Part shown: positions 8,117-22,409 of the stretch, piece by piece
Position numbering within the stretch: the stretch's first letter is position 1
Layout: each line of letters starts with the position of its first letter
Source: a virus
DNA length: 36,399 nucleotides
Reading direction: 5' to 3' (one strand)
IMG/VR virus record: IMGVR_UViG_3300034103_001590
Span: 1-36,399 of that record
Notes under the pieces: model-generated
What the model was told of the DNA's origin: nothing
Databases searched by the model: none
The model's input: the letters and a program-made list of their open reading frames with translations, nothing else
Program-made: the position numbers and the translations under genes

Positions 8117-8393
8117 ATTAGAAAAATATAAAAATTTATACTCTCAACTAATTTCAGAGTTTGCTACTTTACACAATTCTCACCAACTCTTTATAAGAAC
8201 CAAAGGTAGAGATCCTGCTATGGTTTCTAGAAGGAGTTTAAGATCTATTGCAAAAATTGCTAATGAAATGAAAAGACAAGGTCAAAAAGTATCACAAGAA
8301 TTTATGGCAAACAAAAGATTAGAAAAAATTCGTCTTAGAGAAGAAAAAGCAACGAAAAAGACGAAAAAACATGACTTGGCTATATCAAAATAA
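8103..8393 (+). CDS. Small basic protein of unknown function
   Basis: I do not recognise this 96-residue protein. It is helical and strongly basic toward the end ('RLEKIRLREEKATKKTKKH'), with a central 'RTKGRDPAMVSRRSLRSIAK' stretch that could contact nucleic acid. The frame is also open from an ATG at 8091. I chose 8103 because it lies nearer the gp46 stop (8114-8116), but neither start has a clear ribosome site and both depend on coupling to gp46. Its end overlaps the next gene by 23 bases. A role beside gp46/gp47 is guessed from position only. Confidence 0.6.
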   Translation: MSNIELEKYKNLYSQLISEFATLHNSHQLFIRTKGRDPAMVSRRSLRSIAKIANEMKRQGQKVSQEFMANKRLEKIRLREEKATKKTKKHDLAISK

Positions 8394-8796
8394 TACCATA
8401 ACAGAATTACCCGAAGATTGTGTAGGCTTTGTTTATATCATTACTAACAAAATAACAAATAGAAAATACATTGGCAAAAAATTGGCAAAATTTAGTAAAA
8501 CGACCTACAAGACTGTAAAGTTAAAGAACGGCACAAAAAAGAAAAAGAAAATTCGAAGCAAAATAGACAGCGACTGGCAAGATTATTATGGCTCAAACGA
8601 ACAATTGAATAAAGATGTAGTACAACTAGGCACAGAAAATTTTATAAGAGAAATACTTTATTTTTGTAAATCTAAAGCAGAATGCAGTTACATTGAGGCA
8701 AGAGAACAATTTTCAAGGCGAGTTTTAGAAACAAACGAATATTATAACGGGCATATACAAGTCCGTGTCCATGGCTCACACATATTAAAATCTTAA
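8371..8796 (+). CDS. SegE-like GIY-YIG endonuclease
   Basis: This 141-residue protein carries the GIY-YIG nuclease signature in the form used by T4 SegE-like proteins: 'VYIITN' (21-26), 'KYIGKK' (32-37), a basic insert (about 46-64), 'DWQDYYGSNEQL', and the metal-binding glutamate in 'CSYIEAREQ' (E109). An Asn follows in 'EYYNGHI'. T4 Seg enzymes are free-standing homing endonucleases that cut related phage DNA so their gene spreads. No second DNA-binding domain is seen, so it is a minimal version. It is the last gene of the gp47 cluster and stands directly against the structured, gene-free region at 8797-9237. Confidence 0.8.
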   Translation: MTWLYQNNTITELPEDCVGFVYIITNKITNRKYIGKKLAKFSKTTYKTVKLKNGTKKKKKIRSKIDSDWQDYYGSNEQLNKDVVQLGTENFIREILYFCKSKAECSYIEAREQFSRRVLETNEYYNGHIQVRVHGSHILKS

Positions 8797-8798
8797 GG

Positions 8799-9159
8799 CA
8801 CTTTTAAGCGGTAAAGGCTCAGCGTAGGCTAATTTCTTATGCCCAATACCTGGATCTCGGATCGCAGGGAACGGAAAACTCTCGCCGCTGTGAGTACTCA
8901 ACCACTACCCGAAAGGATGAGGATCGCTACTAAGCCCTGCGATTTGGTTGTTTGAAGAGGATTGAATAGGCAAAAAGAAGGGTAATTCCCTAACGGACAT
9001 ATAGGTGATAGCATGCCTAGATGCTCCTGCCGTCGAATAAAGACGCTGCTCGTGGTACCGGTCGACCGCCACTGTAATGCAGTAATGCTATGTGACTGTG
9101 CAACTCAGATGATGTTCAGTTATTTTTTTGCCCTGCTCGGGCAAAGAGTGACCACTTAA
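8799..9159 (+). ncRNA. Candidate large structured non-coding RNA (~360 nt)
   Basis: No convincing gene lies here. By hand count 147 of 300 bases (8821-9120) are G or C, against about 30% in the neighbouring genes. Complementary segments nest well. 8804-8812 pairs with 9151-9159 (one mismatch), or alternatively 8799-8805 with 9144-9150. 8861-8869 pairs with 8935-8943 (9 perfect pairs). 8967-8972 pairs with 9014-9019. Hairpins lie at 8979-8991, 9031-9045, 9095-9120 and 9127-9145 (7 pairs, 5-base loop). CAACC (8899-8903) and GGTTG (8946-8950) could form a pseudoknot. The strand is assumed from the flanking genes. I cannot match it to tRNA, tmRNA, RNase P or a group I intron. Large phage RNA classes such as GOLLD, ROOL or HEARO should be tested. 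Confidence 0.65.
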
Positions 9160-9191
9160 TCTAGATGATATATCTCTCTTAACTATCTAAA

Positions 9192-9236
9192 TATGCTTCG
9201 AGTCCTTAGACGAAGAAGCATACGAACGCAGTTCGT
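9192..9236 (+). other. Two adjacent hairpins before the late promoter
   Basis: TATGCTTC (9192-9199) pairs with GAAGCATA (9215-9222), and ACGAAC (9222-9227) pairs with GTTCGT (9231-9236) around a 3-base loop. They end two bases before the TATAAATA box. They may end the upstream RNA transcript or form its 3' structure. The downstream T run is too short for a classical terminator. Confidence 0.45.
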
Positions 9237-9237
9237 T

Positions 9238-9245
9238 TATAAATA
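9238..9245 (+). promoter_or_regulatory. T4-type late promoter TATAAATA
   Basis: TATAAATA is an exact match to the T4 late promoter core. It lies 23 bases before the chosen ATG at 9268 and after two hairpins, with no -35 box needed for gp55. It is the best late promoter in the window and would drive the gene pair 9268-11479. Confidence 0.65.
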
Positions 9246-20448: not shown

Positions 20449-21630
20449 ATGTCAAAACTTTTAAATGAAAGATGGTCAGAGACCAAAGAAGCTCTGCTTG
20501 AAGGCCTACAAGGTAACCGTAAAGCTTCTATGGGCGTTTGCCTAGAAAACACACGTCGTTACTTAGCAGAGTCTGCAACAGCAGGTGCAACAAGTGCTGG
20601 AAATATTGCTACACTAAATCGTGTCATTCTTCCAGTTATTCGTCGTGTTATGCCAACAGTTATTGCTAACGAAATCATTGGTGTTCAGCCAATGACAGGA
20701 CCTGTTGCACAGATCCACACTCTACGTGTTCGTTATGCTGACGGTGTTGGTTCTGGTGATGTTGTGACAGCAGGTGAAGAAGCACTAAGCCCATTCAAGA
20801 TTGCTCAAGCATATTCTGGAAATAACGCTTCTGCAGGCGGCGCAGCAACAACTGCCGCTCTAGAAGGTACACCAGGTAAGCGTATGAGCATTCAAATCTT
20901 AAAGACACCAGTCGAAGCTAAGTCTCGTAAACTAAGCGCACGCTGGACCTTTGAGGCTGCACAAGATGCACAAGCACAACAAGGTATTGATATCGAAGCA
21001 GAAATTATGGCTGCTCTAGCACAAGAAATTACTGCTGAAATTGACCAAGAGATTTTAACAAATCTACGTGCTCTAGCAAGTGTTGAAGAAACATACGACC
21101 AGGCTTTAGTTTCTGGTACTGCTACATTCGTTGGTGACGAACATGCTGCTCTAGCAATTCAAATCAACCGTGTAAGTAACTTAATTGCTCAAAGAACACG
21201 TCGTGGTTCTGCTAACTGGGCAGTTGTTTCTAACCAGGCTCTAACAATTCTACAGAGCGCAACAACCAGTGCATTTGCACGTACAACAGAAGGCACATTC
21301 GAGGCTCCAACAAACACCAAGTTCGTTGGTACTCTAAATGGTGCAATGCGTGTTTATGTTGATGCATACATGAGCGACACAAACGACAACAACCAAATTC
21401 TTGTTGGTTATAAGGGTTCTAGCGAAGCAGACGCTGCTGCGTTCTATTGCCCATATATTCCTCTAATGAGTTCTGGTGTTGTTCTAGATCCAGCAACATT
21501 CGAGCCAGTAGTTGGCTTCCTAACACGTTACGGATATGTTGAGTTAACAAACACAGCATCTTCTCTAGGTAACGCTGCTGATTACTTAGGTAAGGTTGCA
21601 ATCACAAGTGCAAACGTAAGTTTCAAGTAA
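20449..21630 (+). CDS. 23: Major capsid protein gp23
   Basis: This is the HK97-fold capsid subunit. The 393 residues show the gp23 block 'TLNRVILPVIRRVMPTVIAN' and 'IIGVQPMTGPVAQIHTLRVRY'. Later 'SRKLSARWTFEAAQDAQAQ', 'EIMAALAQEITAEIDQEI' and 'YVDAYM' fit the family. The N-terminal ~41 residues end in 'LAE', which suits gp21 cleavage after Glu41. It is shorter than T4 gp23 (521 aa), as in marine relatives. AAGGAG precedes the ATG. Codon use differs from the neighbours: CGT is preferred for Arg and CTA for Leu, as expected of a very highly expressed gene. A strong terminator follows the stop. Confidence 0.96.
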   Translation: MSKLLNERWSETKEALLEGLQGNRKASMGVCLENTRRYLAESATAGATSAGNIATLNRVILPVIRRVMPTVIANEIIGVQPMTGPVAQIHTLRVRYADGVGSGDVVTAGEEALSPFKIAQAYSGNNASAGGAATTAALEGTPGKRMSIQILKTPVEAKSRKLSARWTFEAAQDAQAQQGIDIEAEIMAALAQEITAEIDQEILTNLRALASVEETYDQALVSGTATFVGDEHAALAIQINRVSNLIAQRTRRGSANWAVVSNQALTILQSATTSAFARTTEGTFEAPTNTKFVGTLNGAMRVYVDAYMSDTNDNNQILVGYKGSSEADAAAFYCPYIPLMSSGVVLDPATFEPVVGFLTRYGYVELTNTASSLGNAADYLGKVAITSANVSFK

Positions 21631-21679: not shown

Positions 21680-21687
21680 ATTAAATA
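21680..21687 (+). promoter_or_regulatory. Candidate late promoter ATTAAATA
   Basis: ATTAAATA begins directly after the gp23 terminator and 72 bases before the next gene. A new promoter is needed here, which supports the call. Confidence 0.45.
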
Positions 21688-21758
21688 CAGAGTCTAGAGT
21701 ATTATGCGGAGGTCCAACCGCGTATGGCCTAGAACGCCAAATATAAGGAGAAAAACAA

Positions 21759-22409
21759 ATGGGACGTCCTATTAAATCAAAATATTTCGGAGTACCTAAA
21801 GGAACAGGTACAGGTGGTGAAGGTGTTAGTTTAGTTACACTTGGAACAAACCCTGAATCTACATTAACAGTTACCGTTGTTTTCAGTGCACCGGACTTGC
21901 CGGGCGGAACAACTGCTGCTGGTACTGCTGTAAAAACTGGAAACACAGTAACAAGCGTAACAGTAGATTCTGCAGGATCTGGATACCTAACAGTACCATC
22001 AGTTTCGTTTACTGGAACTAGTATGAGTGTTATTGGAAGTGCAACTGCTACATTAACAACTAGCGTAAGCAACGTTATTCGTGCTACTGCATTTTTAACA
22101 GGCGGTTCTGCATTAGTTGCAGACATCGACGAACAGGTAGCAAGTAAAAAATACCGTGTTCAAACAGCAAATGGTACAGATGTAGCAAGATTAGTCAGTA
22201 CTAATACAGATCAACTAGTTGCAGGTCAGATGAATATTCTTGCAACAGATGGAAATGGAAGTACTTATTGGGTTAAAAAATTAACTGCCCGCAGAGCCGT
22301 AGTTGTTCAATCTACAGCCAGTGGAAGTTTTGTCTTTAACAGCGGTGCTTCTGTTGGATGGAATTTAGATGCAGCAAACAGTACTGATGTCTTAGTTGAC
22401 AATCATTGA
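21759..22409 (+). CDS. Capsid-associated or structural beta-protein
   Basis: This 216-residue protein begins 'MGRPIKSKYFG' and is rich in Thr, Val, Gly and Ser. A repeat-like beta region (about 60-110) is followed by 'KKYRVQTANGTDVARLV' and 'STYWVKKLTARRAVVVQ'. I associate this pattern with virion proteins encoded just after gp23 in marine T4-like phages. It stands alone between two strong terminators, which suggests high and separate expression, as for a head decoration protein. AAGGAG lies before the ATG. The decoration role is inference. Confidence 0.65.
   Translation: MGRPIKSKYFGVPKGTGTGGEGVSLVTLGTNPESTLTVTVVFSAPDLPGGTTAAGTAVKTGNTVTSVTVDSAGSGYLTVPSVSFTGTSMSVIGSATATLTTSVSNVIRATAFLTGGSALVADIDEQVASKKYRVQTANGTDVARLVSTNTDQLVAGQMNILATDGNGSTYWVKKLTARRAVVVQSTASGSFVFNSGASVGWNLDAANSTDVLVDNH

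Follow-up and report, generated by a model that had tools for sequence, protein, structure and literature searches.

The 36,399-base virus record IMGVR_UViG_3300034103_001590, one strand of which was analysed over its full length (hereafter the window), almost certainly contains a genuine gene for a structured phage RNA, about 375 nucleotides (nt) long. The RNA begins with a domain matching the Rfam family RF01718 (Polynucleobacter-1) and continues into a 3' domain that carries near its end two copies of a short tag. Each tag includes a 7-mer, X, that varies between phages, and the two copies of X within one RNA evolve in step and remain identical. A previous sequence-only reading of positions 8797-9237 had proposed a large structured phage RNA with one compact fold of about 360 nt at this place; both points hold, with strong support from covariation in a 70-sequence alignment.

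A covarying RNA built on an orphan Rfam family

Relatives of the RNA were collected from viral contigs with a core pattern, found in at least 120 stretches including some chance matches. After 11 matches without downstream motifs, contig-end cases and near-duplicates had been left out, 107 pattern loci were kept, of which 87 were unique and 73 remained after thinning. The alignment of this architecture (type A) holds 70 of the 73 RNAs, the first being the window's own (L001); two chance matches (L011 and L105) and one truncated or divergent RNA (L103) were dropped. The resulting structure of 76 pairs was guided by a mutual-information scan and RNAalifold, and it has 97.4% of its cells paired compared with 83.9% after shuffling, counted on the same alignment, which favours it. 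Covariation among homologues, named in the sequence-only reading as the test to apply, is extensive: 50 pairs change on both sides (35.6 when shuffled) and 702 cells show such changes (190 when shuffled). The covariation score is 0.414 compared with 0.160 in shuffles and 0.037-0.075 when partners are slid, and sliding by 1-3 columns leaves 36-45% of cells paired. The margin is very large even though the structure was chosen on the same alignment. Individual helices and the three pseudoknots are listed in Table 1.

The RF01718 match is the only one in Rfam 15 for this stretch. The consensus helices of the family are present in the window RNA, and the same helices covary among the 70 sequences. 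The RNA had initially been described as belonging to no recognizable class; this does not apply to its 5' 137 nt, which fit the complete RF01718 model at 101 bits; the model spans only about a third of the RNA. A search of Rfam, also proposed at that stage, thus takes away part of the novelty, while the 3' domain, two further architectures (types B and C, described below) and the twin tag remain outside the known family. Compared with the 141 modelled positions, the RNA is nearly three times as long: about 220 further nt add more helices, two pseudoknots and the twin tags, one strand of the P1 pseudoknot falls outside the model, and so do roughly half of the supported helices. Other suggested identities, namely diverged GOLLD, ROOL or HEARO RNAs, a group I intron or tmRNA, were absent among the matches of a permissive Rfam 15 scan to E = 5, and ARAGORN detected no tRNA or tmRNA in the window.

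Polynucleobacter-1 was first described by Weinberg et al. 2010 (PMC2864571). Table 1 of that paper lists it as probably RNA and probably cis-regulatory, with ambiguous riboswitch status, and gives its distribution as Burkholderiales and fresh water/estuary. The supplement treats each motif with its flanking genes and may therefore already contain some of the context given here. In the open-access literature, the accession RF01718 was found in no other paper, and the family is an orphan; here it accounts for roughly one third of a large RNA carried by viruses. The RNA is common among uncultured phage contigs. RF01718 had no match in the genome reached via locus L414, nor in any of seven isolated phages with a related GIY-YIG gene, which were searched whole, and neither of two versions of the RNA had a blastn match among 50,697 phage records; no cultured phage with the RNA is therefore in hand from these searches.

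The signals visible in the single sequence were of uneven value. As initially stated, 8797-9237 holds no convincing gene: there is no long open reading frame (ORF), only one of 55 amino acids (aa) on the minus strand at 8905-9072. A contrast in G+C content was correctly noticed (48.7% over 8821-9120, compared with 35.8% for the window), but it is weaker than claimed, with 86 of 3610 300-nt intervals equally G+C-rich or richer; those shown outside the RNA lie near 10.8-11.1 and 14.4-14.8 kb, within ORFs. The folding energy of the single sequence does not stand out (z -1.37, with 8 of 100 shuffles equally good), so the case for an RNA rests on comparison. Two helices of 9 bp (8861-8869/8935-8943) and 6 bp (8967-8972/9014-9019) proposed initially do not survive it, as they are jointly paired in 69.2% of cells among the 70 relatives, a value reached by 165 of 500 shuffles. 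The same is true of the two helices thought to close the fold. One (8804-8812/9151-9159) is 60.8% paired, reached by 394 of 500 shuffles, and the other (8799-8805/9144-9150) 54.2%, reached by 40 of 500; the covariation score of the latter is reached by only 4 of 500 shuffles, yet exceeded by all six slid versions. The supposed pseudoknot 8899-8903/8946-8950 proved to be a real pairing, but it belongs to a nested helix, P5.

Twin tags shared by different RNA bodies

The copies of X lie about 55 nt apart near the 3' end, behind ACUC in the 5' copy (copy 1) and AUCU in the 3' copy (copy 2). Tags were counted in 184 of 281 model-aligned matches, after selection for gap-free tags and removal of duplicates. 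X is identical in both copies in 182 of these 184 non-redundant RNAs (the exceptions are L261 and L188), and the three bases before it, CUC and UCU, differ as C/T, T/C and C/T in all 184. The variants of X are AGATAAT (69), GGATAAT (54), GGATGAT (19), AGATGAT (12), GGATGAA (11), GCATAAT (10), GAATAAT (5) and others (4). On a tree of 156 full-length RNAs, built from the RNA upstream of copy 1, positions X1, X2, X5 and X7 changed 25, 9, 17 and 9 times, numbers that recombination could inflate, with 0, 0, 1 and 2 mixed states. Partial identity extends upstream, since the two bases before ACUC and AUCU match in 128 and 147 of the 184 RNAs, compared with 69 and 91 expected. Both tags are preceded by (U)GAC directly behind an RNA helix (PK2 and P13, respectively). 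Matched X was also read by eye in the divergent RNAs L238, L258, L290, L277, L194 and L045. Two tags in a single RNA that covary by keeping the same base are, to our knowledge, seldom described; a test designed for complementary pairing would not recognize them as a helix.

A literal search of 364 loci (2.87 Mb) for ACTC-X followed by ATCT-X, with X the same in both, gave 207 distinct places. Of these places, 191 are in type A or B RNAs, 15 in type C, and one (L226) is too near a contig end to class. Because the loci were fetched for holding the RNA or its neighbour, this count speaks for specificity and not for abundance. With another duplicate filter, the real order was found 200 times, the reverse order once, ACTC-ACTC 14 times, ATCT-ATCT 18 times and other combinations 0 to 3 times.

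The same twin tag is common to types A, B and C, whose bodies differ. Type B has the 3' domain without a detectable RF01718 domain and with its own 5' half, for which a fold was predicted from 17 of the 20 type B loci; of its 77 pairs, 30 show changes on both sides in one or more of the 17 sequences. None of 13 type B loci matched Rfam at gathering scores; among region scans, one gave no match to E 10 and another gave three chance-level matches. Type C was found behind the SegE-type GIY-YIG gene that neighbours the RNA (L181, L184 and L187) and has no profile match to A or B. It was detected in 28 stretches by an exact core string and in one more by a looser string, and the one locus scanned against Rfam gave chance-level matches only. 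Once duplicates and one short locus had been removed, 17 type C sequences remained, and every one has CUC and UCU before a shared tag, which is the full ACATGAA in 16 and six bases in L505. In addition, about 117 nt behind SegE in L159 and L172 resemble, by eye, a diverged type A 5' domain ended by the contig end. A pattern for the 3' domain also matched at least 117 stretches in genome contigs of unrelated bacteria and archaea; these are presumably chance matches.

The stem-loop between the tags, P13, may be switchable. Its 5' strand (S), its 3' strand (R2) and a more distant segment (R1) show a three-way covariation at columns 9039 (R1), 9129 (S) and 9143 (R2), which read A/T/A in 77, G/C/G in 42 and T/A/T in 14 of 184 RNAs. 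Column 9039 can pair with 9129 in 157 of 184 and 9129 with 9143 in 168, and 9039 equals 9143 in 142, compared with a mean of 66 and a maximum of 85 in shuffles. Strings shared by R1 and R2 are longer than in shuffles in type A (126 RNAs; mean 3.79, shuffled 3.43, maximum 3.54) and type B (18 RNAs; mean 5.00, shuffled 4.49, maximum 4.89), but the shuffles used for the three-way covariation and the shared strings, like those for the inter-spacer helix discussed below, ignore kinship. Judged from these sequence patterns, S may pair alternately with R2 or R1, the hairpin that separates the tags swapping partners; a base triple R1-S-R2 is an alternative.

The locus and its neighbours

The RNA adjoins a GIY-YIG gene, as initially noted, which is of the SegE type (Pfam PF19835). 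SegE and then the RNA sit between the SbcC gene and virion genes. A protein search with the GIY-YIG sequence gave 581 relatives, from which 80 loci were kept; a profile of the RNA matches 65 of these 80, always on the SegE strand. In nine others (L150, L156, L161, L164, L166, L167, L169, L176 and L193), an ORF of 334-388 aa replaces the RNA behind SegE; one of the nine is still open at the end of the translated stretch, and their starts look hydrophobic by eye. G018, the 84.5-kb record behind one of them, contains no profile match and no tag pair. A homing-endonuclease element was considered and rejected: GIY-YIG relatives occur in 490 phage records, and RF01718 was in none of the seven such phages searched. 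PHROGs (phrog_447) and several GenBank records label the SegE family 'NAD synthetase', a name that looks wrong and conflicts with the Pfam SegE_GIY-YIG match.

Based on SbcD/SbcC-like genes (phrog_100, phrog_77), a portal (phrog_213), a head protease (phrog_207) and a major head protein (phrog_138), the phage looks T4-like. The SbcD- and SbcC-like genes flank a glycosyltransferase family 17 gene (Pfam PF04724; 5515-6345, plus strand). Rfam also recognizes a second RNA in the window, RF02980 (freshwater-2), at 21681-21761 (plus strand; 51.9 bits, cut-off 49.9), directly behind the major head protein gene (20449-21630). When ORFs of at least 70 aa are masked, the RNA is the largest non-coding gap of genome G002, but not of G015 or G016. 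Words containing AGGCA stand directly before the RNA in L290, L249 and L238, and TTAGGCACA-like words in L290 and L249; (T)AGGC is the start of many type A RNAs, and TTAGGC is not rare elsewhere in the genomes.

Behind the RNA are two hairpins that are possibly its terminator; a terminator scan found 9222-9236 terminator-like on the minus strand only. A downstream hairpin of 6 bp is present in 162 of 164 type A flanks, a count without control. In 200-nt downstream flanks, ATAAATA occurs in 117 of 164 type A loci (where it separates the RNA from the gene; missing in 47) and 12 of 14 type C loci, compared with 17 of 206 shuffled flanks of all types pooled. It is absent on either strand from all 28 type B flanks, and at six of the nine type B loci inspected the first ORF that does not overlap the RNA points towards it, which makes the RNA hardly a leader of the next gene in type B. 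It would therefore not generally be such a leader, despite the 'probably cis-regulatory' of the 2010 table.

Table 1. Features of the RNA and its immediate surroundings, with positions in the window
Feature	Position	Strand	Support or remark
SegE-type GIY-YIG gene	8371-8796	+	Pfam PF19835, E 1.3e-30; neighbour, outside the RNA
Conserved structured RNA, type A, about 375 nt	8796-9173	+	70-sequence alignment, 76 pairs, three pseudoknots
Part covered by RF01718 (Polynucleobacter-1)	8817-8953	+	101 bits, gathering cut-off 37, whole model 1-141
P1 pseudoknot	8808-8811 with 8885-8888 (P4 loop)	+	3 of 4 pairs change on both sides, 96.4% paired
P5, encloses P6 and P7	8899-8904 with 8945-8950	+	100% of cells paired
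P9 hairpin, loop forms PK2	8995-9027	+	12 of 12 pairs change on both sides; segments 95.5% and 96.3% paired
PK2 pseudoknot	9008-9014 with 9085-9091	+	6 of 7 pairs change on both sides, 99.4% paired
P10 pseudoknot	9032-9036 with 9062-9066	+	94.5% paired
R1 (NAAG), putative alternative partner of the P13 5' strand	9039-9042	+	Three-way covariation
P11	9046-9049 with 9079-9082	+	99.3% paired
P12	9053-9056 with 9068-9071	+	100% paired
Tag copy 1, ACUC + X (AGAUGAU here)	9103-9113	+	Mutual-information scan, aligned columns, literal search
P13 stem-loop between the tags (S 9126-9129, R2 9143-9146)	9126-9146	+	94.8% paired
Tag copy 2, AUCU + same X	9159-9169	+	Mutual-information scan, aligned columns, literal search
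Two hairpins behind the RNA	9194-9220 and 9222-9236	+	First read from sequence
T4-late-promoter-like TATAAATA	9238-9245	+	Precedes the next gene

Possible roles of the tail and comparison with known systems

It is quite possible, if short of probable, that the element acts in trans as a phage non-coding RNA whose tail gives one partner two docking sites. The multi-pseudoknot body would be followed by a tail in which P13 stands between two copies of a recognition tag, ACUC-X and AUCU-X. Both copies would dock the same partner, either a phage-specific protein or a nucleic acid, and for this reason the two X would have to change together. The fixed CUC/UCU difference, a C-U exchange at each position, would give the sites unequal strength or different neighbours. 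By swapping R2 for R1, the 5' strand of P13 might couple the fold of the body to the exposure of the tags, so that the body senses or scaffolds and the tail delivers. In favour of this reading are the covariation along the entire RNA, the identity of X beside the fixed CUC/UCU difference, the tag pair common to differing bodies and largely confined to them in the literal search, the three-way covariation of R1, S and R2, the type B flanks, and the RNA matches on the SegE strand in 65 of 80 loci.

Several observations weigh against this two-site docking. No third alignment column tracks X, and a complement of X at a fixed place between 1.2 kb upstream and 0.9 kb downstream was found in at best 11 of 177 loci, some rows being misparsed. 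Outside ORFs, the YYY-X string occurs in five long records (711 kb) only in the RNA itself. R1 and R2 are equal in only 142 of 184 RNAs, and in L045, read by eye, X is matched although copy 1 lacks CUC. If the spacers before the two tags formed a helix (a dyad), this would readily explain why the tags are identical; the score of such a helix (11.70) exceeds all 30 shuffles (mean 10.83, maximum 11.24; kinship again ignored), but the helix is not general, as no run is longer than 3 in 79 of 183 RNAs. As a separate candidate, a promoter-like role of X was rejected, since the phage's own X is not enriched in five records or 63 loci (counts by eye).

Other explanations have been considered for the same observations. 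An element that acts in cis at the end of the gp46-SegE operon, as a processed or stabilizing 3' untranslated region, is unlikely; in that case the hairpins would be its terminator and processing would take place at the tags. Such an element would agree with the RNA following SegE immediately and in the same orientation at many loci (65 of the 80 SegE loci have a match on that strand) and with the hairpins in nearly all type A flanks (162 of 164). However, an extra ORF separates SegE from the RNA in L253, L254 and L295, L249 has other neighbours, and elaborate pseudoknots with matched tags would exceed the needs of a terminator. Sites acting at the DNA level, which would be direct repeats for a fast-evolving phage protein (origin, packaging or recombination) lying by chance inside an RNA gene, appear improbable. 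Repeats that co-vary with their binding protein are common, and ACTCRNATRAWG is nearly unique per record (27 matches in 22 records, 21 in the RNA by position), as such sites might be. Yet the placing of both tags behind (U)GAC and an RNA helix suggests RNA modules, and the fixed CUC/UCU difference would be odd for sites of one protein. That the identity has no function, gene conversion or template switching between repeats keeping the copies alike, is the most doubtful of these proposals. Short direct repeats 48-60 nt apart that flank a hairpin would suit such a process, but CUC and UCU beside X differ in every RNA while X is homogenized, so concerted evolution would have to spare them each time, and the entire tag pair is kept across body types.

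Two further proposals borrow from telomerase-type RNAs. In a template RNA with realignment, a polymerase would begin copying at copy 2 and stop at copy 1, where PK2 marks the boundary; its product would then anneal back to copy 2. In favour of this, copy 1 is closely preceded by the 3' strand of PK2, and none of the 25 changes at X1, where the product would have its 3' end, left a mixed state, compared with 1 and 2 mixed states for X5 and X7. Against it, RVT_1 (PF00078) had no match in 22 records, some of them fragments, which leaves room for a host enzyme; partial identity extends upstream of CUC/UCU; and the copies are separated by about 50 nt that include a stable stem, whereas a 20-mer is described as having abolished repeat addition in DRT10 (PMC12632851). 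This proposal is an outside chance. Scarcely stronger is the idea of an RNA machine with a portable tail (ACUC-X, a switchable stem-loop and AUCU-X), in which homology between the tags would let a strand or partner be handed from copy to copy. Different bodies (A/B and C), all following one type of gene, would carry the tail, and a phage-encoded reverse transcriptase would not be needed; a homology-dependent hand-over of this type, by analogy with telomerase-type templates, is speculative. X offers a direct experimental handle, and if the tags do dock a partner, they point to a phage ribonucleoprotein not yet known.

Among known systems, the translational bypass of T4 gene 60 leads from one codon to a matching one across about 50 nt, with a hairpin. 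Most X can likewise be parsed as a codon plus UAA or UGA, but the identity here covers 7 nt instead of 3, and no long reading frame leads into copy 1 in the window (checked by hand), so a translated tag was also rejected. GOLLD and ROOL are linked to phages and are larger than the RNA described here. They share with it the character of large ornate RNAs (PMC12286853), but the window RNA has no covariance-model match to them to E 5. DRT10 non-coding RNA and telomerase RNA are described as using template realignment in an A-B-A' arrangement (PMC12632851). Unlike in these systems, no reverse transcriptase gene was detected here in the 22 records and about 50 nt lie between the copies, and unlike DRT10 the locus is viral and not a defence locus. 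As far as that account goes, they have in common with the phage RNA a structured element beside the 5' copy and two copies of a short variable sequence that are kept alike, here in 182 of 184 RNAs. If the tags were to mean template realignment, the RNA would be a viral parallel to telomerase-type RNAs.
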